Assembly (NCBI RefSeq): GCF_014201195.1
Contig: NZ_JACHDS010000001.1
Location: 4,092,001 to 4,156,000 of the forward strand
DNA from: Nocardiopsis mwathae
GTDB taxonomy: Bacteria; Actinomycetota; Actinomycetes; Streptosporangiales; Streptosporangiaceae
DNA length: 64,000 nucleotides
Direction: 5' to 3'
Below are positions 2,375 through 18,494 of the stretch, piece after piece. The notes beneath the pieces are model-generated. The model did not search any database and had not been told where the DNA came from. It was given only the letters and a program-made list of their open reading frames with translations. A program made the translations under genes and the position numbers. The stretch's first letter is position 1. The number at the start of each line of letters is the position of its first letter.

Positions 2375-4009
2375 ATGCAGACCGCCGCTTCCGAACCGGA
2401 GCTCAGCGATTACCTGGCCTTGCTGCGCCGTCGGTGGCGGGTTGTGGTCGCGGCCGCGCTCGCGGGCCTCGTCCTCGCCGCCGTCGCCCTCGTGCTCGCT
2501 CCGAAGACCTACACGGCGACCACGTCGGTGCAGGTCCGCCCGACCGGCCTGGCCGAGCTCACGGGCGAGCGCATCGGGCGCACCAACGGCGAGGTGAACC
2601 TGGACACCGAGGCACAGGTCGTGCGGTCCATCCGGGTGGCCGACGCGGCCGCCCGGCTGCTCGGCACCGACGAGGACCCGGTGCGGCTGCGCGAACGCGT
2701 CGATGTCACCGTCCCGCCGAACAGCAGCGTCCTGGACATCGACTACTCCGCCGGCTCCCCCACCGCGGCCCGCGCGGGCTCGGCGGCGTTCGCCGACGCC
2801 TACCTCGCCCACCGCCGCGACGAGGTGACCGACCGGATCGACGGCCGCCTCGCCGCCCTGCGTGCCAGGGCCGAGGACCGCTACGAAACCCTGGAGGACC
2901 TGGCAGCGGCCACGACCAGCGGAAAGGACGCCACCCGGGCCCGTGCCGAGAGCCGGATCGTGTCGGTGCAGGACGAGATCTCCGACCTGAACGGCGAGAT
3001 CACGCCGCTGAGCTCGCTCCGGGACTCGATGGAGCCCGGCCAGGTCATCAGCCCCGCCTCCGCGCCCGAGTCCGCCACCGCTCCCCGCGTCCCGGTGTGG
3101 CTGGCCGGAGGCCTGATGCTGGGGCTGCTGGCCGGCCTGAGCCTGGCCCACCTCGGTGAGCGCCGTGACCCGCGGCTTCACCACACGCGCGACGTGCGGC
3201 GGTGCACACCGACCCCGGTCCTGCTCGACCTGGCCGACGACCTGCCCGGCGGGGCGCCCGCCGGGCTCTCCGGCCTGCTGCCGCCCGCCGGGCGCGGCGG
3301 CCAGCGCGTCAACTCCCTCGCCCTCACCCTCGGCGCCCGGTCGGCCGTCGGCGGGCGCCTGGTCCTGGTCCCCGGAGTCTCCACCGGCCCGTCGGCGATG
3401 TTCGTCGCCGCCAACCTCGCCGCCGCGCTCGCCCGTATGAACACCGACGTGCTGCTGGTCTGCGCCGACCCCGACGGCACCGCCGCGCAGGGGCTGCTGG
3501 AACTGCCGACCGGGCCGGGGCTGGCCGAGGCGCTGGCCGCCGGGGCCGACCCGGGGCGCATGGAGTACCGTCCCGGGCGCCTGCCCGGCCTGCGGGTGCT
3601 GCGCTTCGGCGAGCGGGACGCCGTCGACCTGCTGCAGTGCGCGTCGATGACGCACCTGTTGCGGACACTGCGCACCGACGCGGAGTGCGTCGTGGTCGCG
3701 ACCGCGCCACTGGCCGAGCGGGCCGACGCGCAGGCCATGGCCGCGGTGTGCGACACCGTGCTGCCCGTCGTCGACCTCGGCCGCACCGGAGCGGCCGAGC
3801 TCGCGGCGGCGCTGCGGGTGTTCGCCGCCCTCGACGCCGACCTACCCGGCCTGGTCACCGTACGGGCGGAGGACACGGCCGCGGCGGCGGCCGGGCGCAC
3901 GCCGGGCCCCGCCGGGGCGGCGGGCGATCCGGACCGGCCCGCGGAGACGCCGCCGGGCGACGTCTCCGCCGAGGACCGGTCCTCCGCGGCACCCTCCCTG
4001 CGGAACTGA
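2375..4009 (+). CDS. Wzz/BY-kinase-like polysaccharide co-polymerase with degenerate P-loop
   Basis: About 544 aa. Residues 1-20 carry the Wzz-type start (SDYLALLRRRWRVV), TM1 is ~22-42, a periplasmic-type region with helical stretches spans ~45-235, and TM2 is ~241-260 (VPVWLAGGLMLGLLAGLSLA). The cytoplasmic part resembles a bacterial tyrosine kinase/ParA fold: the strand LVLVPGVSTGPSAM (~329-342) sits where Walker A belongs, and VLLVCADPD (~359-367) matches the Walker A' strand. The lysine of GxxGxGKS/T is absent (STGPSA), and the C-terminal tail has no tyrosine cluster. I infer a chain-length/assembly regulator without kinase activity. ATG 2375 is preferred over an upstream in-frame start because of AAAGGA at 2358-2363. 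Its TGA overlaps the next ATG (TGATG). First gene of the plus-strand operon. Confidence 0.8.
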   Translation: MQTAASEPELSDYLALLRRRWRVVVAAALAGLVLAAVALVLAPKTYTATTSVQVRPTGLAELTGERIGRTNGEVNLDTEAQVVRSIRVADAAARLLGTDEDPVRLRERVDVTVPPNSSVLDIDYSAGSPTAARAGSAAFADAYLAHRRDEVTDRIDGRLAALRARAEDRYETLEDLAAATTSGKDATRARAESRIVSVQDEISDLNGEITPLSSLRDSMEPGQVISPASAPESATAPRVPVWLAGGLMLGLLAGLSLAHLGERRDPRLHHTRDVRRCTPTPVLLDLADDLPGGAPAGLSGLLPPAGRGGQRVNSLALTLGARSAVGGRLVLVPGVSTGPSAMFVAANLAAALARMNTDVLLVCADPDGTAAQGLLELPTGPGLAEALAAGADPGRMEYRPGRLPGLRVLRFGERDAVDLLQCASMTHLLRTLRTDAECVVVATAPLAERADAQAMAAVCDTVLPVVDLGRTGAAELAAALRVFAALDADLPGLVTVRAEDTAAAAAGRTPGPAGAAGDPDRPAETPPGDVSAEDRSSAAPSLRN

Positions 4010-5424
4010 TGGCGGCCGACGGCGCGCCGTCGGCGCGCACCGCACCCCGCCCCCCGTCCGGCCCCGCGCAGGCGCAGGTGTGCCCGCGCCCCGGCGCACT
4101 GGCCCCCGGGTGGCCGCTGATCTGGCTGCTCGCCGGTTTCCCCCTGTGGTGGGCGCTGGGCATCGGGTACTTCGCGTTCTGGGTCTTCGCCGTCCCGATG
4201 GCCGTCGAGCTGGTCCGCCGCCACCGCGGGCCGGGGCTGCGGCTGCCGCCCGGTTTCGGGCTGTGGGCGCTCTTCCTGCTGTGGGCGGTCGCCGGGCTCG
4301 CGCTCATCGGCGCGGTGCCGCCGGGCACCCTGGCCGACAGCGGGGGCCTGCTCGGCGCGCTCGCCCGGGTGATCAGCTACCTGTCGGTGACCGTGATCCT
4401 GCTGTATGTGGGCAACCTGTCCCGGCGGGAGCTGCCCGACCTCGTGGTGGCGCGCGCGCTGGGCTGGCTGTGTCTGGCGACGGTCGCGGGTGGGCTGCTG
4501 GGCATGCTCGCCCCGGCCTTCGAGTTCACCTCGCCGATGGAGCTGCTGCTGCCCGGGCCGATCGCCGCCGACGAGTACGTGCGGGCACTCGTGCACCCCG
4601 AGGCGGCGCAGATCATGAACGTCCTGGGCTACGAGAGCGCCCGGCCGAAGGCCCCGTGGGAGTTCACCAACACGTGGGGCTACATGCTGTCGCTACTGCT
4701 CATCTGGCTGGTCATCGGGTGGGTGCGGGCCGGCCGGGGGTGGCGGCGGTGGACCGGTGCGGTGGCCGTGGCCCTCGCGGTGGCCCCCGTCGTCACCTCG
4801 CTCAACCGCGCCCTGTGGGCGGGCCTGGCGCTGTCGGTGGCGTTCGCGGTGGTCGTGCTGGCGCGGCGGGGCCGGGTGGCGGCGGCGGGCGCGTGTGTGC
4901 TGCTGGTGGCCGCGGCGCTGGCCGCGGTGGTGGCCTCGCCGCTGATGTCCACACTGCGCGAGCGCGCCGACAATCCGCACAGCGACGGCGGCCGCGCGGC
5001 CACGAGCGCCGCGGCGCGGGAGGCCGCCGCGGCCTCCCCCGTGCTGGGCTGGGGCACCACCCGGGACATGGCCGGCAGCTCGCAGTCGATCGCCATCGGC
5101 AAGTCACCGGAGTGCCCGGCCTGCGGCAACCCGACCATCGGGAACAACGGCCAGTTCTGGCTGCTGCTGATCAGCACCGGGTGGGTCGGCACCGCCCTGT
5201 TCCTGGGGTTTTTCGCGCGCGTGGTGTGGCGGTACCGGCGTGATGTGTCCCTGGTCGGTGGGGGCGCACTACTGACGATTTTGTTACTTTTCTGGTACAT
5301 GTTCTTTTATGTCGCGCTAACGGCGCCGCTGGCCGTCTGCATGATCGCCACCGCTCTGCTGTGGCGGCGGGCCACCGAACCCGGCGCCGTGCCTGCCGCG
5401 ACGGTGGGGGGTGATACGGCATGA
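4009..5424 (+). CDS. O-antigen ligase/Wzy-like polysaccharide polymerase
   Basis: About 471 aa integral membrane protein with roughly 10-12 hydrophobic segments. A large loop (about residues 165-220, EFTSPMELLLPGPIAADEYVRALVHPEAAQIM) and a second loop containing LGWGTTRDMAGSSQS resemble the long periplasmic loops of the Wzy/WaaL family. It likely joins lipid-linked repeat units, or ligates the glycan, on the outer face of the membrane. It is coupled to the upstream Wzz-like gene by a TGATG overlap, and its own stop overlaps the next ATG (ATGA, 5421-5424). A co-polymerase plus polymerase pair is typical of Wzx/Wzy-dependent assembly. Polymerase versus ligase cannot be decided from sequence alone. 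Confidence 0.75.
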   Translation: MAADGAPSARTAPRPPSGPAQAQVCPRPGALAPGWPLIWLLAGFPLWWALGIGYFAFWVFAVPMAVELVRRHRGPGLRLPPGFGLWALFLLWAVAGLALIGAVPPGTLADSGGLLGALARVISYLSVTVILLYVGNLSRRELPDLVVARALGWLCLATVAGGLLGMLAPAFEFTSPMELLLPGPIAADEYVRALVHPEAAQIMNVLGYESARPKAPWEFTNTWGYMLSLLLIWLVIGWVRAGRGWRRWTGAVAVALAVAPVVTSLNRALWAGLALSVAFAVVVLARRGRVAAAGACVLLVAAALAAVVASPLMSTLRERADNPHSDGGRAATSAAAREAAAASPVLGWGTTRDMAGSSQSIAIGKSPECPACGNPTIGNNGQFWLLLISTGWVGTALFLGFFARVVWRYRRDVSLVGGGALLTILLLFWYMFFYVALTAPLAVCMIATALLWRRATEPGAVPAATVGGDTA

Positions 5425-6668
5425 ACGGCGAGACCACCTACCTGACCGATCTGGCCGAGGTGCTGTGGCCGTGCGGCGGCCTCCTCGGCCGCGGGGCGGA
5501 CAGGGCCCCGCAGCGGGAGGAAACCGAGCCCCCCGGCGAGGCCGAGGTTCGCGAGTACCTCCCGGTCCCCTCCGCACACAACCCCCGGGTCATCCTCCCG
5601 GTCACCAACCGCTACGCGGCCGCCCGCGGCATCGCCGCATTCGCGCAGCGCCACTCCTTCGCCCAGCGCGTCCGCGCCGCACTGCTGACGTCGGCGTTCG
5701 CCAGCGGGCTGGCGCCACTCCTGCTGCGCGACCGGCTGCACGTCGGGCCGGGCCGGACCATCGAGCATGCGCTGGCGTCCGCGCTCGACCGCGACGTCGT
5801 CATCGCCATCCACCTCGGCCCGCCGCGCGCCAACCGCAAGCCGGTGCTGCTCCTGCTCACACCGGCCGGGCGCACCATCGGCTACGCCAAGCTCGGTGTC
5901 AACGAGCTGACCTCGCGGCTGGTCCGGGCCGAGACCGACGCGCTGCGCCGCCTCGCCGACGCCCGGCTGCCCGACATCACCGTTCCCCGGCTCATCCACG
6001 CAGGAGAGTGGAACCGGCACCCCCTGCTCGTACAGGAGGCGCTGCCCGTCGGCGACCAGACCGACCGGCCCACCCGGCGCCAGCTGCTCCGCTGCGTCCT
6101 GCAGATCTGCGATCTGGAGACGGTCCGCGAGATCCGGCTGCACACCAGCCCCTACCACCGCTCCCTGGCCCACCGGATCGCCGCCCTCGGCGACCGCGCC
6201 GAGGCACCCGCCCTGCACGACGCCCTGCGGCGGCTGCCGGACGTGGCTCTCCCGTTCGGCGCCTGGCACGGCGACCTGACCCGGTGGAACGTCGCGAGCA
6301 CCCCGCGCCGGGCGTTCGTGTGGGACTGGGAGCGGCTGTCGTTCGACGCCCCGCTGGGCTTCGACGCGCTCCACTACGAGCTGAACGAGCGCGTGCAATC
6401 CGGGGTCCACCCCGGCGTGCGGCGCTGGCTGGACAGCGGGGCGCGGCTGCTCCGCGACCCGCTGATCGCCGGGGCCGGGCTGCGCTCGGATGCCGTGCCC
6501 ACGGTCATGGCGCTGTACCTGATCGACCTGGCCACGCGCTACCTGCACGACCGGCAACTGGAAGCCGGCGGCCGCCTGGCCGCGGTGGGCGACTGGCTGC
6601 TCCCGGTCCTCGCCGAGCTGCGGGAACGCGCGGGGCAGGAGGCCCGGGAGGCGCGAACGGCCGGCTAG
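5421..6668 (+). CDS. Aminoglycoside-phosphotransferase-fold (APH-like) protein
   Basis: 415 aa. The C-terminal half shows a kinase-like APH fold: catalytic-loop motif HGDLTRWN at ~283-290 followed by WDWE at ~301-304, matching the HGDxxxxN...DxE pattern. A candidate nucleotide-binding Lys/Glu pair is YAKLGVNEL (K~157) and ETDALRRL (E~171). The first ~100 residues have no domain I recognise. It is translationally coupled to the polymerase gene by ATGA. Its position inside a glycan operon suggests phosphorylation of a sugar, polyol or lipid intermediate, or addition of a phosphate decoration, rather than antibiotic resistance; that is inference. Catalytic residues look intact. Confidence 0.65.
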   Translation: MNGETTYLTDLAEVLWPCGGLLGRGADRAPQREETEPPGEAEVREYLPVPSAHNPRVILPVTNRYAAARGIAAFAQRHSFAQRVRAALLTSAFASGLAPLLLRDRLHVGPGRTIEHALASALDRDVVIAIHLGPPRANRKPVLLLLTPAGRTIGYAKLGVNELTSRLVRAETDALRRLADARLPDITVPRLIHAGEWNRHPLLVQEALPVGDQTDRPTRRQLLRCVLQICDLETVREIRLHTSPYHRSLAHRIAALGDRAEAPALHDALRRLPDVALPFGAWHGDLTRWNVASTPRRAFVWDWERLSFDAPLGFDALHYELNERVQSGVHPGVRRWLDSGARLLRDPLIAGAGLRSDAVPTVMALYLIDLATRYLHDRQLEAGGRLAAVGDWLLPVLAELRERAGQEAREARTAG

Positions 6669-6769: not shown

Positions 6770-7645
6770 GTGACCGTGATCTCATCGACCACCCGCCACA
6801 TGCCCGACGCGGTGAAGCGGTCGGTCCGCTCGACCTGGGGTGTGTTCGGCCAGGCCACCCGGACGGCCCGGGCACTGCCCACGTTCCTCATCGTCGGCGC
6901 CCAGCGCTGCGGGACGACATCGCTGTTCAAAGCCCTGGTTCAGCACCCCCAGGTGGCCGGCCCGGTGCTCCGCAAGGGCGTCCACTACTTCGACACCGCC
7001 TACGGGCGCGGCGCGGGCTGGTACCGCGGCCACTTCCCGACGCGGGCCGCAACGCGGGCACGGGGCGGGCGGCCGCGCATCGAGGTGGGCGAGTCGAGCC
7101 CCTACTACCTGTTCCACCCCCTGGCCGCCGAGCGCATCGCCCGCGACCTGCCCGGGGTCAAGGTCATCGTGCTGCTCCGCGACCCGGTGGAGCGGGCTTA
7201 CTCCGCGCACAGCCACGAGCGGGCACGCGGCTTCGAGACCGCTGCGTTCGAGCGGGCGCTGGACCTGGAGGAGGAGCGGCTCGCCGGCGAGGAGGCGCGG
7301 CTGCGCGCCGACCCCGGTGCGCGCTCCCACGCCCACCAGCACCACGGCTACCTGGCCCGGGGGCGCTACGCCCTGCAGCTGCTGCGGCTGGAGGAGCACC
7401 TGGGGCGCGACCGCATGCACGTCATGGAGAGCGAGGACTTCTTCGCCACCCCGGAACCGGTCTTCGCCGAGGTCGAGCGCTTCCTGGGGATCCCGCACGC
7501 CGACGGGATCCGCTTCGACCGACACAACGCCCGGCCGCGCGCCGACATGTCGGAGGCGCTGCGCCGGAGACTCACCGACTACTTCGCCCGGGCCGACGAG
7601 CAGCTCGCGGCCTGGTGGGGCCGCACCCCCTCGTGGCGGGCGTGA
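6770..7645 (+). CDS. Sulfotransferase (PAPS-dependent)
   Basis: 291 aa. The 5'-phosphosulfate loop is IVGAQRCGTTSLFKAL at ~41-56 (consensus xxGxxxxGTTxL), and the 3'-phosphate motif is VKVIVLLRDPVERAYSAHSH (~128-147). The length fits the bacterial NodH/carbohydrate sulfotransferase group. It would transfer sulfate from PAPS to a sugar hydroxyl of the repeat unit. GTG start at 6770 is preceded by AAAGGA (6756-6761). It follows the APH-like gene by ~100 bases, and its TGA overlaps the GTG of the flippase gene. The PAPS precursor and PAP recycling genes (cysDN, cysQ) lie in the opposite arm of the locus, which supports the glycan-sulfation role. Confidence 0.85.
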   Translation: MTVISSTTRHMPDAVKRSVRSTWGVFGQATRTARALPTFLIVGAQRCGTTSLFKALVQHPQVAGPVLRKGVHYFDTAYGRGAGWYRGHFPTRAATRARGGRPRIEVGESSPYYLFHPLAAERIARDLPGVKVIVLLRDPVERAYSAHSHERARGFETAAFERALDLEEERLAGEEARLRADPGARSHAHQHHGYLARGRYALQLLRLEEHLGRDRMHVMESEDFFATPEPVFAEVERFLGIPHADGIRFDRHNARPRADMSEALRRRLTDYFARADEQLAAWWGRTPSWRA

Positions 7646-9252
7646 GCCGGGGGCCGGCGGTGCGGGCCGCCGACCCGCTGCTTCGCCGGGTCGCGCGCGG
7701 CGGCGCGGTCAATATGGCCGGGGCGGTGGTCGGCGCCGTGCTCAACCTGGCGCTGGTCATCGCCGTGGCCCGCGGCTTCGACCAGCACACCGCCGGGGTC
7801 CTCTTCGCCGCCACCTCGGTGTTCCTGATCGTCGCGACCGTCGCGAACCTCGGCACGTCCAACGGCATCGTGTACTTCGTGGCGCGGCTGCGCACCCTCG
7901 GCGCGGCCGGACAGGCGCCACGGGTGCTGCGGCTGGCGTTCGGCCCGGTCCTCGCGGTGTCGGCGGCGTCCGGTGCCGCGATGTTCGCGCTGGCGGGCCA
8001 GGTCGCGGAGGTGATCGGCGCGCCGGGCGCCGTCGCCTACGTGCGGATCCTCGCGGTCTTCCTGCCGTTCGCGGTGTTCACCGACGCCGCCCTGGCCTCG
8101 ACGCGCGCCTTCCACGACATGCGCGCCACGGCCCTGGTGGACCGGGTGGGTCGCCCGATGGCCCAGCTCGCCCTCATCGGAGGCGTGGCGCTGACCGGGT
8201 CGGCGGGACTGCTGACGGTCGCGTGGGCCGGGCCGTACCTGCCCGCCGCCGCGGTGGCCTGGTTCTGGCTGCGCCGCATTCTCCGAGCCGACGCCCGCAC
8301 CCCGCCCTCCGCCGATCGCGCGGACACCGGGGGGAGGACCGGCCGTGAGCCCCCTCCGTCCGTACGGTCTCCGAGATCGGCGGAGGAGGAGGTGACGGCG
8401 CGGGGGTTCTGGGGGTTCTCGTTGCCCCGGTCGGTGGCGAGCATCGCCCAGCTCGGCAACCAGCGCCTGGGCATCGTGCTGGTCGCGGCGCTGCAGGGGG
8501 CGGTCGAGGCGGCGGTGTTCACCGCCGCGACCCGGTTCTTCGCGGTGGGGCAGTTCGCCACCCAGGCCATCCAGCTCGCCGCCCAGCCCCGGCTGGCCGA
8601 ACTGCTCGCCGTCGACGACCGCCGGGGCGCCAACACCCTCTACCAGTCGGCCACGGTGTGGCTGATCTGCCTGACCTGGCCGCTGTTCCTCCCGATGATC
8701 GTCTACGCCCCGTTGGTGATGGGGCTGTTCGGCGACGACTACACCCGCGGGGCCGACGTGCTGGTCGTCATCTGCGCCGCCCAGCTCACCGCGGCGGCTC
8801 TGGGCATGGGTGACCTGGTGCTCACCATGGCCGGGCGGACCTCCTGGAACCTCGTCGACAACCTGCTCGCGCTGGCCGCCAACGTCGCGCTGTGCCTGGC
8901 CCTGGTCGGCCAGATCGGGGCGATGGGCGCGGCGTTCGGGTGGCTGGCGGCCATCGCCGCGCGCAAGCTGCTGCCGCTCGTGCAGCTGTCGGCCGCGCTC
9001 GGCCTGCACCCCTTCAGCCGCCGCTGGCTGCTGGCCATGGGGGTCTGCCTGGTGTGGTTCGGGGCCGTCCCCCTGGCCTGCGCCGCGATGCTGGGCACGG
9101 GGTGGCTCTCCCTGACCGCGGCGCTGGCGGCGGGCGGTGCCGGCTATCTCGCGACGCTGTGGCGGCTGCGCGGGGTGCTGGAGCCGCAGCTGCTCGGCAC
9201 CGCTTTCCTGCGCCGCCCCGCGCAGCCCGCCCGCGAATCGACGAAACACTGA
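7642..9252 (+). CDS. Wzx-like polysaccharide flippase (MOP superfamily)
   Basis: About 536 aa with 12-14 hydrophobic segments, matching the MATE/MOP polysaccharide-transporter architecture (GGAVNMAGAVVGAVLNLALVI at the start, repeated six-helix halves). A hydrophilic cytoplasmic loop around residues 215-255 (DARTPPSADRADTGG...) separates the halves. It should flip lipid-linked repeat units to the outer face. GTG 7642 overlaps the sulfotransferase stop by four bases (GTGA); an in-frame ATG at 7615 would overlap more and is less likely. With the Wzz-like and Wzy-like proteins it completes a Wzx/Wzy set. Confidence 0.8.
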   Translation: MSRGPAVRAADPLLRRVARGGAVNMAGAVVGAVLNLALVIAVARGFDQHTAGVLFAATSVFLIVATVANLGTSNGIVYFVARLRTLGAAGQAPRVLRLAFGPVLAVSAASGAAMFALAGQVAEVIGAPGAVAYVRILAVFLPFAVFTDAALASTRAFHDMRATALVDRVGRPMAQLALIGGVALTGSAGLLTVAWAGPYLPAAAVAWFWLRRILRADARTPPSADRADTGGRTGREPPPSVRSPRSAEEEVTARGFWGFSLPRSVASIAQLGNQRLGIVLVAALQGAVEAAVFTAATRFFAVGQFATQAIQLAAQPRLAELLAVDDRRGANTLYQSATVWLICLTWPLFLPMIVYAPLVMGLFGDDYTRGADVLVVICAAQLTAAALGMGDLVLTMAGRTSWNLVDNLLALAANVALCLALVGQIGAMGAAFGWLAAIAARKLLPLVQLSAALGLHPFSRRWLLAMGVCLVWFGAVPLACAAMLGTGWLSLTAALAAGGAGYLATLWRLRGVLEPQLLGTAFLRRPAQPARESTKH

Positions 9253-9298
9253 CCGCAAGTGATGATCAAACTACTACGAGTTGTGGAATCATTGCCGC

Positions 9299-9760
9299 AT
9301 GCCTACCGCCCCGATCCTGTTCGTCGCATCAAGTGGGGGCCACCTCGCCCAGCTGTGGTCCCTGCGTCCCTGGTGGGAGGGGCGGTCGCGGGCCTGGGTC
9401 ACGTTCCGCACGCCTGATGCCGAACCGCTGCTCGACGGCGAAGAGGTCACCTGGGCCCACCACCCCACCACCCGCCATCTCGGCAACCTCGCCCGCAACA
9501 CGGTGCTGGCGGTACGCGTGTTCGCCCGCCGCCGGCCGTCCCTGGTCATCACGACCGGGGCCGGTGTGGCGCTCCCCTTCTTCGCCCTGGCCTGGCTGCT
9601 GCGCGTCCCGACCGTCTACATCGAGGTCTACGACCGGATCGACCGCCCCACCCTGACCACCCGGCTGTGCCGCCCCTTCACCCGCCTGTACCTCGCCCAA
9701 TGGGACGAGCAGCGCACGTTCCTGCCGTCCACCGCCATCACCGTGGGACCGCTCCTGTGA
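9299..9760 (+). CDS. PssD/Alg14-like glycosyltransferase membrane subunit
   Basis: 153 aa. It begins with MPTAPILFVASSGGHLAQLW, the SSGGHLxQL signature of PssD/Alg14 proteins, and has a hydrophobic segment (GVALPFFALAWLLRVPTVYIEVYDRID, ~80-106). Such proteins anchor the PssE/Alg13 catalytic partner to the membrane; together they add the second sugar to a polyprenyl-diphosphate-linked acceptor. ATG 9299 is chosen because it places the glycine-rich loop at the N-terminus; no strong ribosome binding site is visible. The next gene begins with the PssE-like partner and overlaps by GTGA (9757-9760), confirming the pair. Confidence 0.85.
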   Translation: MPTAPILFVASSGGHLAQLWSLRPWWEGRSRAWVTFRTPDAEPLLDGEEVTWAHHPTTRHLGNLARNTVLAVRVFARRRPSLVITTGAGVALPFFALAWLLRVPTVYIEVYDRIDRPTLTTRLCRPFTRLYLAQWDEQRTFLPSTAITVGPLL

Positions 9761-11241
9761 CCAACGACGCGACCGCCACCGACCACCGACCGCTCATCCT
9801 GGTCACCGTCGGCACCGACCACCACCCCTTCGACCGGCTGATCGACTGGGCCGACGCGTATGCCGCCGACCACCCGGACATCCGCGTCCTGGTGCAGTAC
9901 GGCCGCAGCCGCGTGCCGGAGGCGGCGGAGGGCACCGATTTCCTCGGCCCTGCACGGCTCCGCGAGCTGATGCGGGAAGCCGCCGCCGTCGTCACGCACG
10001 GCGGACCGGCCACCGTCACCGAGGCGCGGCGCGCCGGGCGGCTGCCCATCACCGTCGCCCGCGACCCCGAGCTCGGCGAACACGTCGACGACCACCAGCT
10101 GCGCTTCGTGTCCCGCCTGGACAGCGCGCGGCTGGTCCGATCCTGCTGCAGCCACCAGCAGCTCGCCGCCACCCTCGACAAGGCGCTCGACCAACCCGAG
10201 GACTTCCACATCGACTCGGCGGGCGAGGACGGCGCCACCGGCGCCGCGCTGCACGCCGGGCGCATCATCGACCTGCTCACCGCGACGGCGCCGGAGCAGC
10301 CGCCGCTCCCCGTACCGGATGCGGAAGCCGCCGACTGGCCCGACGTGACGGTCGTGATCCCGACCCGCGACCGCCCCGAACTGCTGCGCCGCACCCTGCG
10401 CGCCGTCGTCGAGCAGGACTATCCGGGACGCATCACCTCACTCGTGGTCTACGACCACGACGACCCCGACGAGACGCTGGCCGTGTACGGAGGCGAGCGC
10501 CCCGTCCGGGTCCTGGTCAACACCTCCACCCCCGGCCTGGCCGGGGCCCGCAACACCGGCATCCTCGCGGCGCGGACCGAGCTGGTCGCCTTCTGCGACG
10601 ATGACGACTGCTGGCTTCCGGGGAAGCTGCGCTCCCAGGTCGCGGTGCTGCGAGCCGAGCCCGAGACCGAGGTGGTGTGCTGCGGGATCCGGGTCGTCTA
10701 CGACCGCACCGAGGCCCCGCGCGTCCTCGACCGCACCGCCGTCACCTTCGCCGACCTGCTACGGTCCCGGCTCACCGAACTCCACCCCTCGACCTTCCTG
10801 ATCCGGCGCGACGCCCTGGTCAACGGGTGCGGCCCGGTCAGCGAGACGATCCCCGGCTCCTACGGGGAGGACTACGAGCTGCTGCTGCGGCTGGCCAAGC
10901 GCGCCCCCATCCGCAACATCCCCGAGGAGGGCGTGCGGGTGCTGTGGCACCGCCGCTCGCACTTCAGCGGGCGGTGGCAGACGATCTCCACGGCGCTGCG
11001 CTGGCTGCTCGCCCAGTACCCGGAGTTCCGCCTGGTGCGGCGCGGATTCGCGCGCGTCGCCGGGCAGATCGCCTTCGCCGAGGCGGCGGCCGGACGCCGC
11101 GGCGCCTCCCTGGAGTGGGCGCTGACCACGCTGCGCGCCCACCCGGCCGAGGCCCGTGCTTACCTCGCGCTGGCGGTCACGGGGGGCCTGCCCGCCGGGC
11201 TGGTGCTGCGCACCCTCCACCGCCGCGGCCGCGGGCTGTAG
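9757..11241 (+). CDS. Fusion of PssE/Alg13-like glycosyltransferase and GT2 glycosyltransferase
   Basis: About 494 aa. Residues ~1-170 form the PssE/Alg13 module (LILVTVGTDHHPFDRLIDWAD near the N-terminus and VVTHGGPATVTEARRAGRLPI at ~105-125, the UDP-sugar-binding HGG motif). Residues ~190-440 form a family 2 glycosyltransferase (VTVVIPTRDRPELLRRTL; DDDD cluster in FCDDDDCW as the metal-binding DxD; GEDYELLLRLA as the acceptor-side motif). The GTG start overlaps the PssD stop. One polypeptide could add two successive sugars. Its 3' end overlaps the convergent hydrolase gene by 65 bases. Confidence 0.85.
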   Translation: MTNDATATDHRPLILVTVGTDHHPFDRLIDWADAYAADHPDIRVLVQYGRSRVPEAAEGTDFLGPARLRELMREAAAVVTHGGPATVTEARRAGRLPITVARDPELGEHVDDHQLRFVSRLDSARLVRSCCSHQQLAATLDKALDQPEDFHIDSAGEDGATGAALHAGRIIDLLTATAPEQPPLPVPDAEAADWPDVTVVIPTRDRPELLRRTLRAVVEQDYPGRITSLVVYDHDDPDETLAVYGGERPVRVLVNTSTPGLAGARNTGILAARTELVAFCDDDDCWLPGKLRSQVAVLRAEPETEVVCCGIRVVYDRTEAPRVLDRTAVTFADLLRSRLTELHPSTFLIRRDALVNGCGPVSETIPGSYGEDYELLLRLAKRAPIRNIPEEGVRVLWHRRSHFSGRWQTISTALRWLLAQYPEFRLVRRGFARVAGQIAFAEAAAGRRGASLEWALTTLRAHPAEARAYLALAVTGGLPAGLVLRTLHRRGRGL

Positions 11242-12595
11242 GGCGCGTGGCGCGCGGTTCGTCCCTGATGGTCAGCGGCAGGCCGTCCTGGGCCTCCAGC
11301 GCGAGTCCGAAGGCCAGATCGATCGCCTGCCGGGCCTCGTCGGGGATGTTGACATAGTCCTGCCGACTGGCCTCGGCGAAGCCGCGGCTTGCGTCGGCAT
11401 CGGCGAGTACCCGGAAGTCGCAGGAGGGGGCGGTCATGCCGTCCCACAGTTTGACCGCGCGGATGCGCTCGTACCTCGGCAGCACCTCGGGGATGGCGGC
11501 GTACCAGTCGTAGGTCGCCTCCGGGTCGCCGGGGATCGGGACGGTGCCCATCTCGCCGATCATGACCGGCTTCTCCGGGTCGATCCCGTGTTTGGGGCCC
11601 TCGTACTGCACCCATTCGTAGGCGGGGCGGACCGCCTCCTCGAAGCTGAGCACGTGCTTCCATCCCGGCTGCAGCTCGCAGCCGGTCATGTTGTAGGCCT
11701 CCCAGCTGATCCAGTCGACGTACTCGTTTCCCGGCCATAGCCCGGGCAGCCGGTCGAGATTCCGCGGCCATCCGGTCACGTTCCACACGAAGATCACGTT
11801 GTCGGCCTCCGCCTCCCGGTAGAGGTCCACGATGTGCCGCCAGGCCTGGACGAACTCCTCGGGGCTGCCGCGCTTGCGGTAGCGCTTGTTGGCGTCGGCC
11901 TCGTGGTCGAAGGTGAGGAAGAACGGTGCCTCCAGTCGGCCGATCCGCTCGGCCTGGGCGCGCAGTACGCGGTCGAACTCGCCGTCGATGATCTCCCGGT
12001 AGCGCGCCGGCGGGCGCCCCGGCAGCTTGAAGTGGCGGGCCTCGATGTTGGCGTGCAGGAACCGCCCCTCCTCGACGAGTGGCAGCTCCCGGTCGCGCGG
12101 GACCTCGGCCTGGTCGATGCCGTGCCAGGTGTAGACGATGTCCATGGGACGCCCCATGAGCCGCTCCAGCGGCCGGGGATCGTCCTTCCACGGGCTGGCG
12201 CCCCACCACACGCCGCAGGACGTCTCCAGGATCCGGTCCACCGTGCAGCGGGGGTCGATCCACGGCGGCCGGGGGATGTTCGGTGGCGGGTCGTCGGGGT
12301 GGACGGGAAGCGGCGGCCGGGGCCGGAAAGGGTGGTCGGGGCGTGGTGAGGACAGCGAGGGCCGGGGCGGGAGCGGGGCGGGCGGCCGCGACTCGGCGAA
12401 GGGGCCCGGGGGCGACCACGACCCGGTGTGCGCGCCGTCCGCGGCGGGCGTCCGGGTATCGGCATGGGCGGGGCCCGGGACCGGTGCCCCCTGGCCACCG
12501 CAGGTCGCGGCGAGGACGAGTGCGGCGAGCGCGCCGCCACCGCCCAGCTTCCACCGCCGTCCGTGTGTCGGCCGGTTCGTGCCGTGCGATCTCAC
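11177..12595 (-). CDS. Exported glycoside hydrolase family 26-like protein
   Basis: About 472 aa from the GTG at 12595 (an upstream in-frame ATG at 12667 adds 24 residues). The N-terminus looks like a signal peptide: basic RSHGTNRPTHGRRWK, then LGGGGALAALVLAAT, then CGGQG; a lipoprotein site with Thr at -1 would be atypical. A Pro-rich linker follows. The catalytic domain resembles GH26: FFLTFDHEADANKRY would carry the acid/base Glu, FVWNVTGWPRN the central strand, and KPVMIGEMGTVPIPGDP the nucleophile Glu. It probably trims or releases the locus-encoded glycan. It is convergent with, and overlaps by 65 bases, the PssE-GT2 gene. The ~300 bases between 12596 and 12893 contain no other convincing gene. 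Confidence 0.75.
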   Translation of the reverse strand: MRSHGTNRPTHGRRWKLGGGGALAALVLAATCGGQGAPVPGPAHADTRTPAADGAHTGSWSPPGPFAESRPPAPLPPRPSLSSPRPDHPFRPRPPLPVHPDDPPPNIPRPPWIDPRCTVDRILETSCGVWWGASPWKDDPRPLERLMGRPMDIVYTWHGIDQAEVPRDRELPLVEEGRFLHANIEARHFKLPGRPPARYREIIDGEFDRVLRAQAERIGRLEAPFFLTFDHEADANKRYRKRGSPEEFVQAWRHIVDLYREAEADNVIFVWNVTGWPRNLDRLPGLWPGNEYVDWISWEAYNMTGCELQPGWKHVLSFEEAVRPAYEWVQYEGPKHGIDPEKPVMIGEMGTVPIPGDPEATYDWYAAIPEVLPRYERIRAVKLWDGMTAPSCDFRVLADADASRGFAEASRQDYVNIPDEARQAIDLAFGLALEAQDGLPLTIRDEPRATRPTARGRGGGGCAAPARRAGPP

Positions 12596-12893
12596 CCGAC
12601 CACCACCCCCGCGCCCGGCGCTCGCGCACCGGAGTTCGTTCGCATCCGTCTCGCCCCCTGTGGCCATCCCCGTCCACGCGGCAGCGTCGCCATCCGCGCA
12701 TCCACCACTTGACTACCAGATGCAGCCACACAGTCACGCAAGGTAATGATTTTCGGGCGTGGCACCATAACCGGGCCTTGCTGTGGCATGACCTTCATAA
12801 GGGGCGGATTTGGCGAAGACGCCCGAATCGGCCGGGAGAGATGACGGATTCGCGACGAATTGCACGCCGAAGTGGGGCAACCCCAACCGGATG

Positions 12894-13829
12894 TCAGTAG
12901 CCGAACGTCCGCCGTGCCGGGAAGGTGAGCGCCGAGACCATGAGCCGACTGTGCGGCTCCAACCCGCCGCGCCACGAAACGTCGGGCCGCACTTCCACCT
13001 CGCCGGTGCTGAAGCGCAGCGGGTTGCCCGAGACCGTGTGCCCCGGGGAGAGCCGGGCGGCGCCGTCGGGGCCGATGGGGGTCGCCCCGCCGCTCCCGGC
13101 GAACTCCGCGATCGCGCGGAACTCGCGCTCGGGGTCGGCGGCGAAGTCCTCGTAGCGCACCCGCCGGGTCGGCGTACCGCGCCGGGACAGCTCGGCCAGC
13201 ACCGCGTTCTGCACCATCCACTGCACGGCGGCGCGGCCCGGTGAGTAACGGGCCATCTCCTTCTCCGGACTGGACGGGGTGGCGTCGGGGCGCACCACGC
13301 GCTTGCCCCAGGAGTAGGCGACGGCGCGCGGGTCGCGCACCACGTGCAGCAGGCGCAGCCGGTCGCCGTAGCGGCGGCGCAGGCACACCGCCAGCGAGGC
13401 GTGCTTGCTGGAGTCCACGATCACCGAGGAACCGCTGACCTGGGCGACCGCCGTGTAGAGGCGGTCGTAGAAGTCGGTGTAGCGGTCGACCCGCTCGGCC
13501 AGGGCGGCCGGCGGGCGCCCGCCGATGAGCAGCGGGATGTAGCGGGTGCGGTCCACGCTCGCCTTCAGGTCGAGCAGGGCGGGCGCGTCGACCCGGTCCC
13601 AGCCACCGAAGGCCTCCTCGCCGACCGCGTGCCAGAAGTCGCACGCACCGAACGGGCGGCCGCAACCGCAGACCTCGTCGTCCACGAGACTGCGGCGCCA
13701 CATGTGGACGACCTCACCCACGGAGCACACCTCGGACAACTCCCCGAGAAGGCGCTCAATCAGCGTGGATCCGGAACGGCCGATGCCACCGACGAAAAGC
13801 AGGCGAAAATCCTTCACAATCGCCCACAC
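12894..13829 (-). CDS. Sulfotransferase (second of the locus)
   Basis: 311 aa. The PAPS loop is LLFVGGIGRSGSTLIERLL near the N-terminus, and the 3'-phosphate motif is LHVVRDPRAVAYSWGKR. A Cys-containing insert (DEVCGCGRPFGACDFW) follows the first helix, as in actinobacterial sulfotransferases of the STF3 type. GTG 13829 is used; GTG 13817 is an alternative that gives the more usual short N-terminus. It lies 53 bases downstream of cysN on the same strand, so it is probably in the cysQ-cysD-cysN transcript. The two sulfotransferases differ in length and sequence, suggesting two acceptor positions. Confidence 0.85.
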   Translation of the reverse strand: MWAIVKDFRLLFVGGIGRSGSTLIERLLGELSEVCSVGEVVHMWRRSLVDDEVCGCGRPFGACDFWHAVGEEAFGGWDRVDAPALLDLKASVDRTRYIPLLIGGRPPAALAERVDRYTDFYDRLYTAVAQVSGSSVIVDSSKHASLAVCLRRRYGDRLRLLHVVRDPRAVAYSWGKRVVRPDATPSSPEKEMARYSPGRAAVQWMVQNAVLAELSRRGTPTRRVRYEDFAADPEREFRAIAEFAGSGGATPIGPDGAARLSPGHTVSGNPLRFSTGEVEVRPDVSWRGGLEPHSRLMVSALTFPARRTFGY

Positions 13830-13882
13830 TATTACTTCACGTGATCACTCGCTCACCGTTTCGCCGGTGTCGTCCAATTTCG

Positions 13883-15151
13883 TCAGTCGGCACCCACGAT
13901 CATCCCGGCTCCGACCGTGGCGTTGGTGGTCTCGTCGATGAGGATGAACCCGCCGGTCAGCCGGTTGCGCTTGTACTCGTCGGCGAACAGCGGCTGGGTG
14001 GAGCGCAGGCTCAGCCGACCGATCTCGTTCAGGCTGAGGCCGTCGGCCTCCTCGTCGCGGTGGAGCGTGTTGATGTCCAGCCGGTAGAGAAGGTCGCGGA
14101 CCACGACCTTCACCGTGCGCGTGGTGTGCTTCAGGATGAGCTTGGAGCGCGGAGTGAGCTTGCGCGACTCCGACATCCAGCACACCATCGCGTCGATGTC
14201 CTGCGAGGCGCGCGGCTGGTTGTTCGGGCGGCAGACCATGTCGCCGCGCGAGATGTCGATGTCGTCTTCGAGCAGCAGCGTGACCGACATCGGGGGGTAG
14301 GCCTCGGCCACGTCGCCGTCGGCGGTGGCGATCCGGGAGATGCGGGTGGTCAGCCCCGAGGGCAGGTGCATGACCTCGTCTCCCGGCTTGAGCACGCCGC
14401 CGGCCACCTGGCCGGCGTACCCCCGGTAGTCGTGCAGATCGGCGTCGTCGGCCCGCTGCGGCCGCACCACGTACTGCACCGGGAACCGCACGTCGATGAG
14501 GTTGCGGTCGGAGGCGATGTGCACGTTCTCCAGGTGGTGCAGCAGCGAGGGGCCGTCGTACCAGGGCATGTTGGGCGAGCGGTCCACCACGTTGTCGCCG
14601 TTGAGCGCCGACAGCGGGATGAAGGTGAGGTCGGCGACGTCCAGCTTGGCGGCGAACGCCGAGAACTCCTCCTTGATCTCCTCGAACCGCTCCTGGGCGT
14701 AGTCGACCAGGTCCATCTTGTTGATGGCCAGGACCAGGTGCGGCACCTGGAGCAGCGTGGCCAGGAAGGCGTGCCTGCGGCTCTGCTCCTGCAGGCCCTT
14801 GCGCGCGTCGACCAGGATGATCGCCAGGTCGGCCGTCGAGGCCCCGGTGACCATGTTGCGCGTGTACTGGATGTGGCCGGGGGTGTCGGCGATGATGAAC
14901 GTCCGGCGGGGCGTCGCGAAGTAGCGGTAGGCCACGTCGATGGTGATGCCCTGCTCACGCTCGGCCCGCAGGCCGTCGGTGAGCAGCGCGAGGTTGGTCT
15001 GCTCCTCGCCCCGGCTGCGGCTGGTGCGCTCCACCGCGTCGAGCTGGTCCTCGAAGATGGACTTGGAGTCGTACAGCAGGCGGCCGATGAGGGTGCTCTT
15101 GCCGTCGTCGACGGAACCGGCAGTGGCGAACCGCAGGATGTCAGTACTCAT
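13883..15151 (-). CDS. cysN: Sulfate adenylyltransferase subunit 1 (GTPase) CysN
   Basis: 422 aa from ATG 15151 (GGAAGA upstream). EF-Tu-like GTPase domain: G1 GSVDDGKST, the G2/switch region with EREQGITIDVAYRYF, G3 DTPGH, G4 NKMD, then two beta-barrel domains. CysN couples GTP hydrolysis to APS formation by CysD. The protein ends after the third domain, so there is no fused APS kinase, unlike the CysNC proteins of mycobacteria. The last step to PAPS must come from a cysC elsewhere. It is 90 bases downstream of cysD on the same strand. No sulfite/APS reductase gene is nearby, so the context points to sulfation rather than assimilation. Confidence 0.95.
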   Translation of the reverse strand: MSTDILRFATAGSVDDGKSTLIGRLLYDSKSIFEDQLDAVERTSRSRGEEQTNLALLTDGLRAEREQGITIDVAYRYFATPRRTFIIADTPGHIQYTRNMVTGASTADLAIILVDARKGLQEQSRRHAFLATLLQVPHLVLAINKMDLVDYAQERFEEIKEEFSAFAAKLDVADLTFIPLSALNGDNVVDRSPNMPWYDGPSLLHHLENVHIASDRNLIDVRFPVQYVVRPQRADDADLHDYRGYAGQVAGGVLKPGDEVMHLPSGLTTRISRIATADGDVAEAYPPMSVTLLLEDDIDISRGDMVCRPNNQPRASQDIDAMVCWMSESRKLTPRSKLILKHTTRTVKVVVRDLLYRLDINTLHRDEEADGLSLNEIGRLSLRSTQPLFADEYKRNRLTGGFILIDETTNATVGAGMIVGAD

Positions 15152-15241
15152 GCACGTCTTCCAAATGGGTGTCAGGGGATTCGCGGTCGCGTCCTCGTCC
15201 GCGCGCGGCACCCGCGGGAGTTTCCGTTGCTCGTGAGCGCC

Positions 15242-16174
15242 CTAGAAGTAACCCTCGCGCTTGCGGTCCTCCATGGCCGCCTCGCTGGTCCGGTCATCGG
15301 CCCGGGTCTGTCCGCGCTCGGTGATGCGGGTCGCGGCGATCTCGGCGATGATGCCGTCCACCTCGGTGGCGGTGGAGCGGACCGCGCCGGTGCAGGTCAT
15401 GTCGCCGACCGTGCGGTAGCGGACGGTGGCCTCGAACAGCTCCTCATCGTCGCCCCGGGTGACGTGCGGGCTGTCGGCGAGCAGGACGCCGTCGCGCTCG
15501 AAGACGGTGCGCCGGTGCGCGTAGTAGATGGAGGGGAGTTCGAGGCGCTCCCGGGCGATGTAGCCCCACACGTCCAGCTCGGTCCAGTTGGAGATGGGGA
15601 AGACCCGGATGTGCTCGCCCATGTCGGTGCGCGTGTTGTAGACGTTCCACAGCTCGGGGCGCTGCGCCTTGGGGTCCCACTGGCCGAACTCGTCGCGGAA
15701 GGAGAAGACGCGCTCCTTGGCGCGTGCCTTCTCCTCGTCGCGGCGTGCCCCGCCGAACGCGGCGTCGAAGCGGTGCTCCTCGATGGCCTCCAGCAGCGCG
15801 GCCGTCTGCAGCCGGTTCCGACTGGCCCATCGGCCGGTGGGTTCGCTGACCTTCCCGGCGTCGATCTGCTCCTGCACGGAGGCGACCACGAGCCGGACCC
15901 CGGCCTCGGCGACACGCCGGTCGCGGAACTCCATCACCTCGGGGAAGTTGTGCCCGGTGTCGACGTGCATCACCGGGAACGGGATCGCGCCGGGCCAGAA
16001 CGCCTTCTCGGCCAGGCGGAGCATGACGATGGAGTCCTTGCCGCCGGAGAAGAGCAGCACGGGCCGCTCGAACTCCGCGGCCACCTCGCGCATGATGAAG
16101 ATCGCTTCGGCCTCCAGGTAGTCCAGCTGGGACAGCTGGTACCGCCGGAGCGCCGCCGTTTCGGCCTGAGTCAT
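15242..16174 (-). CDS. cysD: Sulfate adenylyltransferase subunit 2 CysD
   Basis: 310 aa ATP sulfurylase small subunit. PP-loop SGGKDS at ~43-48, MHVDTGHNFPEVMEFRD, and AFGGARRDEEKARAKERVFSFRDEFGQWDP are the diagnostic blocks, and the C-terminus ends KREGYF as in other CysD proteins. It forms adenosine 5'-phosphosulfate from ATP and sulfate with CysN. Order on the minus strand is sugar transferase, cysQ, cysD, cysN, sulfotransferase with short gaps, an operon dedicated to activated sulfate. Length is typical. Confidence 0.96.
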   Translation of the reverse strand: MTQAETAALRRYQLSQLDYLEAEAIFIMREVAAEFERPVLLFSGGKDSIVMLRLAEKAFWPGAIPFPVMHVDTGHNFPEVMEFRDRRVAEAGVRLVVASVQEQIDAGKVSEPTGRWASRNRLQTAALLEAIEEHRFDAAFGGARRDEEKARAKERVFSFRDEFGQWDPKAQRPELWNVYNTRTDMGEHIRVFPISNWTELDVWGYIARERLELPSIYYAHRRTVFERDGVLLADSPHVTRGDDEELFEATVRYRTVGDMTCTGAVRSTATEVDGIIAEIAATRITERGQTRADDRTSEAAMEDRKREGYF

Positions 16175-16248
16175 GAACCCGCCTCACGCTCTGCGGGGCC
16201 CGCTGCTGCGGGGGCTCTACGGATCAGCCTCCCAGGTGCGGGCCCGCG

Positions 16249-17016
16249 TCAACTGAGTTCCGCGGCATCGCGGATGTTCGCCAACAACATACTCGACAAT
16301 TCCGGTCGACATACAAGGATATCGGGTAGGGACGGATCCACCTGGTTGTAGGCCAGCTCCGCGCCGTCGATGCGGGAGGCGTGCAGGCCGGCGGCGTGCG
16401 CGACCGCGACGGGCGCCGCACTGTCCCACTCGAACTGCCCTCCCGCGTGTACGTAGATGTCGGCGATGCCCAGCAGGACCGCGCAGATCTTGGCCCCCGC
16501 CGACCCCATGGGGACCACCTCGGCCCCCAGCGACGTGGCCATCCGCTGCACGAACTCCGGCGGCCGGGTACGGCTGGTGGTGATCCGCAGCCGCTGCCCC
16601 GAGGGGCGCTCGTCGGGCAGCCACGGGGGGTCGACCGTCGACAGCGTGCTGCCCTGGGCGGGAAGCGCCACCGCACCGGCCGCCAGCTCGCCGTTCTCCC
16701 ACAGGGCGACGTGCACCGCCCAGTCCGTCCGGTTCTCCTCGGCGAACTCCCGCGTGCCGTCGAGCGGATCGATGATCCACACGCGCCGGGAGCGCAGCCG
16801 CGCGGCGTCGTCGACGCCCTCCTCCGACAGCACGGCGTCGCTGGGACGCAGCCGCCCCAGCGACGAGAAGAGGAACTCGTGCGCGGTCCGGTCGCCGAGC
16901 GTCCGCAGGACCTCCGGCTCATCGAAGCCGTGCCGGGACCGCAGGCGTAGTAGTTGCCGGCCCGCCTCGGTCGCGAGGTCGCGGGCGACTTCATGATCGT
17001 TTCGGATGCTGCTCAC
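16249..17016 (-). CDS. cysQ: 3'(2'),5'-bisphosphate nucleotidase CysQ
   Basis: About 255 aa in the inositol monophosphatase/Li-sensitive phosphatase superfamily. Metal-site motifs are visible: the SEEG Glu (DAVLSEEGVDD), WIIDPLDGTREF (DPLDGT) and the second Asp in FEWDSAAPVAVAHAAG. CysQ removes the 3'-phosphate from PAP, the inhibitory by-product of sulfotransferases, and can lower PAPS. GTG 17016 is preferred: it begins VSSIRNDHEVARDLATEAG, as family members do, and leaves five bases after the sugar transferase stop, while a start at 17067 would overlap it by 46 bases. Placement beside two sulfotransferases fits by-product removal. Confidence 0.9.
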   Translation of the reverse strand: MSSIRNDHEVARDLATEAGRQLLRLRSRHGFDEPEVLRTLGDRTAHEFLFSSLGRLRPSDAVLSEEGVDDAARLRSRRVWIIDPLDGTREFAEENRTDWAVHVALWENGELAAGAVALPAQGSTLSTVDPPWLPDERPSGQRLRITTSRTRPPEFVQRMATSLGAEVVPMGSAGAKICAVLLGIADIYVHAGGQFEWDSAAPVAVAHAAGLHASRIDGAELAYNQVDPSLPDILVCRPELSSMLLANIRDAAELS

Positions 17017-17021
17017 CGGAC

Positions 17022-18494
17022 TCAGTATGCTCCCGCCCCACGGATCACTGCTGACCACGTCTTCCACAGAATCTGTACGTCAAGGGTCAGCGACCAGTTT
17101 TCCACGTAACGCAGATCCAGACGGACGGATTCCTCCCAGGAGAGGTCGGCCCGACCGCTCACCTGCCACAGACCCGTCATCCCCGGTTTCACCACCAGCC
17201 GCCGCCGCACGTCGTGGCCGTACTCGGCCACCTCCTCGGGCAGCGGCGGACGGGGACCGACCAGCGACATGTCGCCGCGCACCACGTTGATCAACTGGGG
17301 AAGCTCATCGAGGGAGTAGCGGCGCAGCCAGGCGCCCACGGGGGTGACCCGGGGGTCCGTACGCATCTTGAACAGCACACCGTCGTGCTCGTTGGCGGAG
17401 CGCAGCATCTCCTTCAGCGCCTCCGCCTCCGGAACCATGGTACGGAACTTATACAGGGTGAATTCGGCCCCGTCCTTGCCGACACGGGTCTGGCGGAACA
17501 GCGCGGGCCCCTGGTCGCCCGACCGGATGAGCACCACCAGCACCGCGAACAGCGGGGACAGCAGGACCAGTGCGCACGCCGCGGCCATCCGGTCGAACAG
17601 CCCCTTGACCACCCGGCGCGCCCCGCCCAGCTCGGGGTGCTCGACGTGCAGCAGCGGCAGCCCGGCGACCGCGCGGATGGACGTGCGCGGTCCGGCCACC
17701 TCCATCAGCGCCGGGGCGACCGTCAGGTCGGTGTCGCTCTTCTCCAGCCGCCAGGCCAGGCGGCGCAGCTCCACACCGTCCATCTCCGGGCAGCTGAGCA
17801 CCGCGACGGTGTCCGCGCCCACCGCCTCGGCGGCGTCGGCCACCGAGGCGAAGTCACCGAGCACGGGATGACCGTCGACGTAGCCGCCGTCCACCCGCGG
17901 GTGGCACTGGTGGGTGGGCAGGCAGACGCCGATGACGTTCATGCCGTGGTAGGGCTCGCGGCGGAACTGCCCGATGAGTTCGCGGACGCTGTCGCGGTGG
18001 CCCACCACGACGACTCCGCGCATGCACGCGCCGCCGCCGCGCCGCCGGTGCAGCCGCTTGCGCCAGGCGTAGCGCAGCACCAGGCAGAGCAGGACCGTCG
18101 CGGGCAGGGCCACCAGCACGTACCCGCGCGCCGCGTTGATGTCGGTGGCGTAGGCGGTGATGGTCACCGCCGCCACCAGCATCACCCCGCCGCCCAGCAC
18201 CCGCCGGAACTCCTCGGTGCCCACGCCGATGAACCGACGCGCGTATCCGCCGGCCACCGCGGCGACCAGGACCCACAGCGGCGGCAGGAGGGCGGAGGAC
18301 AGGACGTAGGGCAGCTGCCGCGGATCGGCGATCTCGCCGTGGAACCGCAGTTCCAGGGCGAGGACCCCGGCGAGCGACGCCGCAAGGAGGTCGATGGCGA
18401 CCAGACCCCGGATATAGGACCGCATCCATACCGACGACGCGCACCCGGAACGCCGCTGTGCGATACCGACCGCGGTCCCGTCGACGACGGTCAT
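17022..18494 (-). CDS. Polyprenyl glycosylphosphotransferase (initiating sugar-phosphate transferase, WbaP/CpsE type)
   Basis: 490 aa. The N-terminal half has four or so transmembrane helices and a CoA-binding-like/Rossmann domain (MRGVVVVGHRDSVRELIGQF, ~158-180). The C-terminal catalytic domain is bacterial sugar transferase: RVVKGLFDRMAAACALVLLSPLFA, then QTRVGKDGAEFTLYKFRTM, LRRYSLDELPQLINVVRGDMSLVGPRPPLP, and KPGMTGLWQVSGR. It loads the first sugar-1-phosphate onto undecaprenyl phosphate. It is the first gene of the minus-strand arm; a GGAGTGGGGGG ribosome binding site precedes ATG 18494. With PssD/PssE and GT2 it covers initiation and elongation of the repeat unit. Confidence 0.93.
   Translation of the reverse strand: MTVVDGTAVGIAQRRSGCASSVWMRSYIRGLVAIDLLAASLAGVLALELRFHGEIADPRQLPYVLSSALLPPLWVLVAAVAGGYARRFIGVGTEEFRRVLGGGVMLVAAVTITAYATDINAARGYVLVALPATVLLCLVLRYAWRKRLHRRRGGGACMRGVVVVGHRDSVRELIGQFRREPYHGMNVIGVCLPTHQCHPRVDGGYVDGHPVLGDFASVADAAEAVGADTVAVLSCPEMDGVELRRLAWRLEKSDTDLTVAPALMEVAGPRTSIRAVAGLPLLHVEHPELGGARRVVKGLFDRMAAACALVLLSPLFAVLVVLIRSGDQGPALFRQTRVGKDGAEFTLYKFRTMVPEAEALKEMLRSANEHDGVLFKMRTDPRVTPVGAWLRRYSLDELPQLINVVRGDMSLVGPRPPLPEEVAEYGHDVRRRLVVKPGMTGLWQVSGRADLSWEESVRLDLRYVENWSLTLDVQILWKTWSAVIRGAGAY

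Follow-up and report, generated by a model that had tools for sequence, protein, structure and literature searches.

Does the block of glycan-assembly and sulfation genes in the actinomycete Nocardiopsis mwathae specify a sulfated surface polysaccharide, and does it carry its own supply of activated sulfate? The block spans positions 2375-18494 of the window, a stretch of 64,000 nucleotides corresponding to positions 4092001-4156000 of contig NZ_JACHDS010000001.1 (C1) in a genome of 5.94 Mb, and a Pfam scan places it between mfd on the left and pth/rplY/prs on the right. It very probably constitutes a self-contained Wzx/Wzy locus that would make a sulfated exopolysaccharide, and it corresponds to the wps-1 cluster that Tezuka and Ohnishi (2026; PMC13390465) described in Actinoplanes missouriensis. 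Three kinds of evidence carry this reading: the anatomy of the locus, the co-conservation and co-loss of its two sulfotransferases (ST1 and ST2) with the flippase Wzx, and the genetics of wps-1. An earlier note on this DNA had proposed such a surface glycan, and the proposal is well supported; its companion claim, that the sulfate-activation proteins CysD, CysN and CysQ are dedicated to the glycan and do not serve assimilation, is not supported, as set out below.

Anatomy, conservation and inheritance of the locus

The genes form two arms that converge at about 11.2 kb (Table 1): the plus-strand arm runs from wzz to the gene for a fused glycosyltransferase, PssE-GT2, and the minus-strand arm from the initiating polyprenyl-phosphate sugar transferase (PGT) to a GH26-like glycoside hydrolase. 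The PGT, the glycosyltransferases, Wzx, Wzy and Wzz all stand together, as in a Wzx/Wzy locus, with the Wzy_C match slightly below its cut-off. Pfam and TIGR profiles recovered every gene that the earlier note had named, in the place where it had put them, and two further genes of the block, absent from that note, encode an APH-like kinase and the GH26-like protein. The gene set is syntenic across relatives; thus, the block is more than a chance grouping.

Conservation was followed first in a sample of 200 genomes of the same GTDB family, at least 170 of which gave some match to PssE-GT2 at 1e-10, many through the GT2 part alone. Stretches of 20 kb covered 32 of the 35 best-scoring relatives (G008, G123 and G142 were left out for too short a contig or flank), and G174, among the 32, had been listed through the GT2 part alone; presence was taken as a tblastn coverage of at least 40%, which undercounts Wzz, Wzy and CysC. 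ST1, ST2 and Wzx were jointly present in 27 of the 32 loci and jointly absent from the other five (L042, L056, L058, L063 and L067), which retain the kinase, PssE-GT2 and cysN/D/Q. Members of the ST1 family were found in 145 of the 200 genomes, and at E 1e-30 these five relatives had none. Beyond the GTDB family, 73 of 394 genomes of the class, in 37 of 137 genera, have a member of the ST1 family, and 67 of 396 genomes of the phylum have one of the ST2 family (E 1e-25). A scan of named genomes returned 237 relatives of ST2, of which the best 80 were analysed: ST1 is present in 65 of these 80 loci, and the 65 contain Wzx and GT2 without exception, the kinase in 61 and Wzy in 54. Several of the 15 loci without ST1 are cut by the ends of contigs or of the 10-kb flanks, and the absence of ST1 from them is not proven. 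Twenty family loci chosen by ST1, hand-picked from the upper part of the 145-genome list, contain the kinase (20), Wzy (18), Wzz (17), Wzx (16), ST2 (13) and cysN/D/Q (10). Among 12 phylum-level ST2 loci, from 12 of the 67 genomes, six have ST1, and all six have Wzx.

The inheritance of the locus looks vertical and core-genome-like, in contrast to that of horizontally shuffled capsule loci, because its divergence tracks that of housekeeping genes. Pairwise distances of nine locus proteins correlated with those of Pth (r 0.75-0.84) and of CysN (r 0.72-0.89), and not one of the 300 permutations run for each comparison, on 12 to 31 sequences, gave a value as high as that observed.

Predicted sulfation and PAPS supply, and rival readings

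Among solved enzymes of known function, the heparan sulfate (HS) sulfotransferases are nearest to ST1. The ST1 profile matched HS 3-O- and N-sulfotransferases over the range 2e-22 to 4e-18 (HS 3-OST-5 at E 2.3e-22, NDST at E 1.7e-19), with a catalytic-domain similarity that includes the motifs for 3′-phosphoadenosine 5′-phosphosulfate (PAPS), and it matched a bacterial sulfotransferase, 3rnl, better (4e-34). ST2, whose GRSGST motif is invariant in 24 family members, weakly matches several sulfotransferase types, and the solved structures closest to its profile are those of polyketide-synthase, tyrosine- and aryl-sulfotransferases. A simple hydropathy count gave no membrane segment in either protein, so that sulfation before flipping is the simplest order of events. 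The idea that the locus holds the only sulfotransferases of the genome, suggested by PF00685, was rejected, since PF13469 adds two above its cut-off (C1:2711208 and C1:2357571). Some relatives carry a third sulfotransferase within the locus (L200:12023-12928 and L178:9968-10981), which suggests more sulfation sites in those relatives.

In the pathway predicted from these assignments, undecaprenyl phosphate would receive its first sugar phosphate from PGT, one or two sugars would follow through PssD/PssE and the GT2 domain, and the cytosolic ST1 and ST2 would sulfate the lipid-linked unit using PAPS. Wzx would flip the unit, Wzy would polymerise it, Wzz would set the chain length, and the GH26-like protein would trim the polymer outside the cell. 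The kinase-like protein, whose counterpart is needed in Actinoplanes (PMC13390465), may also take part in the pathway. As for the sulfate donor, a supported route is that CysDN would produce adenosine 5′-phosphosulfate (APS), CysC would convert it to PAPS, and CysQ would clear the by-product 3′-phosphoadenosine 5′-phosphate (PAP); CysDN would additionally supply assimilation through an unlinked CysH.

The genomic setting of these enzymes bears on the second part of our question. PF01507 matched two proteins in the genome, the CysD of the locus and CysH at 1.74 Mb, which adjoins a sulfite-reductase-like protein and lies far from the locus at 4.1 Mb. At the locus, cysDN is linked neither to an APS/PAPS reductase nor to a sulfite reductase, as it would be in an assimilation operon; the earlier remark that no such reductase is present therefore holds within the block but fails for the genome as a whole. 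The only APS kinase found with PF01583 is CysC (C1:4088686-4089141), about 3 kb to the left of the window and beside mfd, where it forms the C-terminal part of a 640-aa protein. The N-terminal PUA/sulfurylase part of this protein gave a low PF01747 score (31.8 bits) and is the sole PF01747 match in the genome. A working sulfurylase in this fusion (C1:4088686-4089777) was considered and judged unlikely: it reads LAERPLHH where 2gks and 1m8p have QTRNPMHR, and the second motif (GRDH) is altered too. The same motifs are likewise altered in five aligned homologues, that of L067 lacking part of the region. Since these motifs are lost and the genome encodes CysD only once, both CysH and sulfation should depend on CysDN alone for their APS, and functional sharing with assimilation is likely. 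The CysH sequence carries CC...CxxC, which we take to be a mark of APS reductases; if CysH is such an enzyme, PAPS is required for sulfotransfer only.

Several observations weigh against a sulfated glycan as the product of the whole locus. Residue G70 of ST1, invariant in 24 of 24 sequences, aligns to a Glu of 3bd9, and the Glu before the HFF motif is presumably the catalytic base of HS 3-O-sulfotransferases. ST1 was not found in six of the 12 phylum-level ST2 loci. Wzx was not found in four of the 20 ST1-chosen loci: in L208 and L209, where ST1 and the kinase persist, Wzy and Wzz are lacking as well, and L193 and L206 have Wzy and Wzz but gave no Wzx match. The co-conservation of sulfotransferases with Wzx/Wzy genes, which the earlier note had named as a check, holds for the 65 named loci with both sulfotransferases, among the best 80 of 237, but not throughout the ST1-chosen ones. 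In Actinopolymorpha, three ST2 genes (L077, L099 and L107; 60-66% identity to the ST2 of the window) stand with no further gene of the locus inside 10 kb; the four scanned neighbours in L077 are an AI-2E transporter, an MFS protein, a P450 and a ROK protein, and the two scanned in L107 gave no family match. CysDN is, moreover, common to assimilation and sulfation. In Actinoplanes, deletion of wpsB (the ST2 counterpart) or wpsE (GH26) had mild effects, and the sulfated polysaccharide predicted for wps-1 awaits verification, according to its authors (PMC13390465). The solved relatives of ST2 and its solitary occurrence in Actinopolymorpha, where it has the look of a gene acquired by transfer and turned to another role, would suit a reading in which the sulfotransferases act on a lipid or a small secondary metabolite and the adjacent Wzx/Wzy glycan is unsulfated. 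We consider this reading very unlikely, in view of the constant company of Wzx in the 65 named loci with both sulfotransferases, the joint loss of all three in five relatives, the HS type of ST1, and the resemblance of the wpsH deletion to deletions of Wzx, Wzy and Wzz in Actinoplanes (PMC13390465).

The sulfated-glycan reading is compatible with another, to which we give slightly less than an even chance, namely that CysD, CysN and CysQ are plain assimilation genes beside an exopolysaccharide locus that has no precursor supply of its own. The single CysD, the reductases encoded elsewhere, and the retention of cysN, cysD and cysQ in all five reduced loci lacking sulfotransferases (of 32) and in L208 and L209 agree with it, and these same facts, together with the degenerate PF01747 domain, tell against an exclusive dedication to the glycan. 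On the other side, the position of cysD/N/Q beside ST2 is kept across genera, the PAP phosphatase included; 18 of the 20 ST1-chosen loci have a match to the kinase part of CysC inside their 20-kb stretch, a number that falls to two when 40% of the full protein must be covered; and assimilation through a CysH of the APS-reductase pattern would not need PAPS. It is rather unlikely that the product is a matrix specific to sporangia or spores, as in Actinoplanes: the locus also occurs in Nocardiopsis, Streptomonospora and Modestobacter, which are not known to form sporangia, and ST1 is spread over the class genera as given above. What speaks for such a matrix is that wps-1 is turned on early in sporangium formation and that its loss deforms sporangia (PMC13390465). 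Going beyond the window, we give an even chance to a broader reading: in much of the Actinomycetota, a sulfated glycan would be an ancient constituent of the surface or of spores, passed on vertically and peculiar neither to cyanobacteria nor to sporangia. A single conserved machine (Wzx/Wzy, kinase, heparan-type ST1 and ST2), linked to a PAPS supply and PAP removal of its own, would produce it. If many actinomycete genera have such a machine in their core genome, sulfated glycans would be a general trait, and the locus would be a possible microbial source of them.

Accessory proteins and putative regulatory elements

The APH-like kinase of the window gave no family match by itself at E 0.001, PF01636 (APH) included, whereas 14 of 35 aligned relatives matched PF01636; its profile matched no solved structure. 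It is retained in all seven reduced loci (the five above, L208 and L209), in which Wzx, Wzy and Wzz are lost or remnants, accompanied by PssE-GT2 in five and by ST1 in two, and it may have a second role. The GH26-like profile matched Endoglucanase H of C. thermocellum at E 2e-22. In this family the DHE motif is invariant, and the Glu of a later GEM motif is missing in three of 18 aligned proteins; the N-terminal sequence points to secretion. An anti-phage role was considered for the kinase and the hydrolase and rejected, as these two proteins had no PADLOC match at E 0.01.

Upstream of both arms lies a TACTGTT-like element, found before wzz in 15 of 38 and before PGT in 26 of 68 upstream stretches (fewer than one expected in each case), the rows of these counts being related and not independent, with some loci occurring twice. 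It emerged in place of the developmental promoters BldN and WhiG, for which the window gave no good match to the consensus. In 13 of the 38 stretches before wzz, that of the window among them, the presumed -10 is overlapped by an inverted repeat, TTRGTR-N10-YACYAA (0.0 expected from simulated sequences, the rows again being related and some loci occurring twice). Its arms change in relatives, and it is likely to be a repressor operator. Elsewhere in the window, positions 43581-45281 and 45927-46769 encode a protein O-mannosyltransferase and a channel of the ion-transport family, with no visible tie to the locus described here.

Table 1. Features of the putative sulfated-polysaccharide locus and its borders (positions in the window).
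Feature	Position	Strand	Basis or remark
mfd, C-terminal part	6..2099	+	Pfam TRCF, CarD_TRCF_RID, DEAD; conserved left boundary; cysC on its far side, outside the window
Putative promoter/operator before wzz	2316..2344	+	TACTGTT element overlapped by inverted repeat TTGGTA-N10-TACCcAA
Wzz-like co-polymerase with ParA/BY-kinase-like C-terminal part	2375..4009	+	PF02706 34.3 bits; TIGR01005/TIGR03018 partial, below cut-off
Wzy-like polymerase, 471 aa	4009..5424	+	Wzy_C 29.9 bits (cut-off 31.7); 9 hydrophobic segments
APH-like kinase, WpsI counterpart	5421..6668	+	HGD...N and WDWE motifs invariant in 25
ST1, PAPS sulfotransferase of HS 3-O/N-sulfotransferase type, WpsH counterpart	6770..7645	+	Sulfotransfer_3 46.6 bits
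Wzx-like flippase	7615..9252	+	PF01554 (MatE) and PF13440 (Polysacc_synt_3), each barely above cut-off
PssD (Alg14-like) glycosyltransferase subunit	9281..9760	+	PF08660 27.4 bits (cut-off 27)
PssE-like GT28 domain fused to GT2 domain	9667..11241	+	PF04101, PF00535; NF041548 PssE partial, below cut-off; true start probably 9757
Putatively secreted GH26-like protein, WpsE counterpart	11177..12667	-	Profile match to Endoglucanase H; PF02156 19.7 bits, barely below cut-off
ST2, second PAPS sulfotransferase, WpsB counterpart	12894..13829	-	PF13469 (Sulfotransfer_3) 53.3 bits
CysN, GTPase subunit of sulfate adenylyltransferase	13883..15211	-	TIGR02034 568.9 bits; no APS-kinase fusion
CysD	15242..16174	-	TIGR02039 450.4 bits; only copy in the genome
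CysQ-like PAP phosphatase	16249..17067	-	PF00459 120 bits; TIGR01331 109 bits, below equivalog cut-off
PGT, WbaP/WcaJ-type, initiating enzyme	17022..18494	-	PF02397 225.8 bits; TIGR03025 416 bits
TACTGTT element upstream of minus-strand arm	18628..18634	-	
pth	19007..19681	-	PF01195; synteny; conserved right boundary

Comparison with known systems

The resemblance of ST1 to HS 3-O- and N-sulfotransferases spans most of the catalytic domain, whereas the bacterial protein differs from them in the Gly that replaces the Glu of the QEIHFFD-like motif and in having no membrane anchor. Reports of bacterial sulfated polysaccharides are scarce apart from those on cyanobacteria and some marine strains (PMC13390465). 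The synechan (xss) cluster of Synechocystis PCC 6803 likewise combines Wzx with sulfotransferases for a bacterial sulfated exopolysaccharide, in a different phylum, and is likened to the window by description only (PMC8205485, as cited in PMC13390465). In actinomycetes such glycans are rarely described, as the earlier note had said: wps-1 alone represents this type of locus in the openly licensed literature searched.

Judged by gene order and content, the window locus is of the wps-1 kind, with supply genes added. The wps-1 cluster (AMIS_7280-7380 plus AMIS_7390) is required for sporangium formation; sporangia are squashed on deletion of wpsH, Wzx, Wzy, Wzz, the kinase gene or either glycosyltransferase gene, deletion of wpsD (DUF4262) has no effect, and its authors conclude that all other wps-1 genes are required for normal sporangia (PMC13390465). 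Both loci have the order Wzz-Wzy-kinase-heparan-type sulfotransferase-Wzx, as well as GH26, a second sulfotransferase and GT2, with a sulfurylase/APS kinase near Wzz. By contrast, the window has PssD/PssE, with PssE fused to GT2, in place of the GT26 of wps-1, and holds its own PGT and CysD/N/Q within the block; the GT26, methyltransferase and DUF4262 of wps-1 were not among the scanned window proteins, and GT26 is present in the family member L200. This likeness was drawn from gene order and description, named Actinoplanes loci (L129 and others) standing in for the AMIS_ proteins. L129 reads Wzz-Wzy-kinase-ST1-Wzx...GH26-DUF4262...ST2-GT2, in agreement with wps-1, and its scanned frames yielded neither the GT26 nor the methyltransferase.

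A further parallel concerns the sulfate donor. In five named loci that we place in the Micromonosporaceae (L118, L120, L125, L139 and L143), a cysC homologue truncated at the edge of the locus ends just before wzz, which resembles the position of AMIS_7390 before wpsK (PMC13390465). AMIS_7390 encodes a sulfurylase/APS kinase, and its deletion impaired sporangia severely, a need that its discoverers called “unexpectedly” found (PMC13390465). If AMIS_7390 were the PAPS source of wps-1, as we propose, the sporangium defect of its deletion mutant would be explained.

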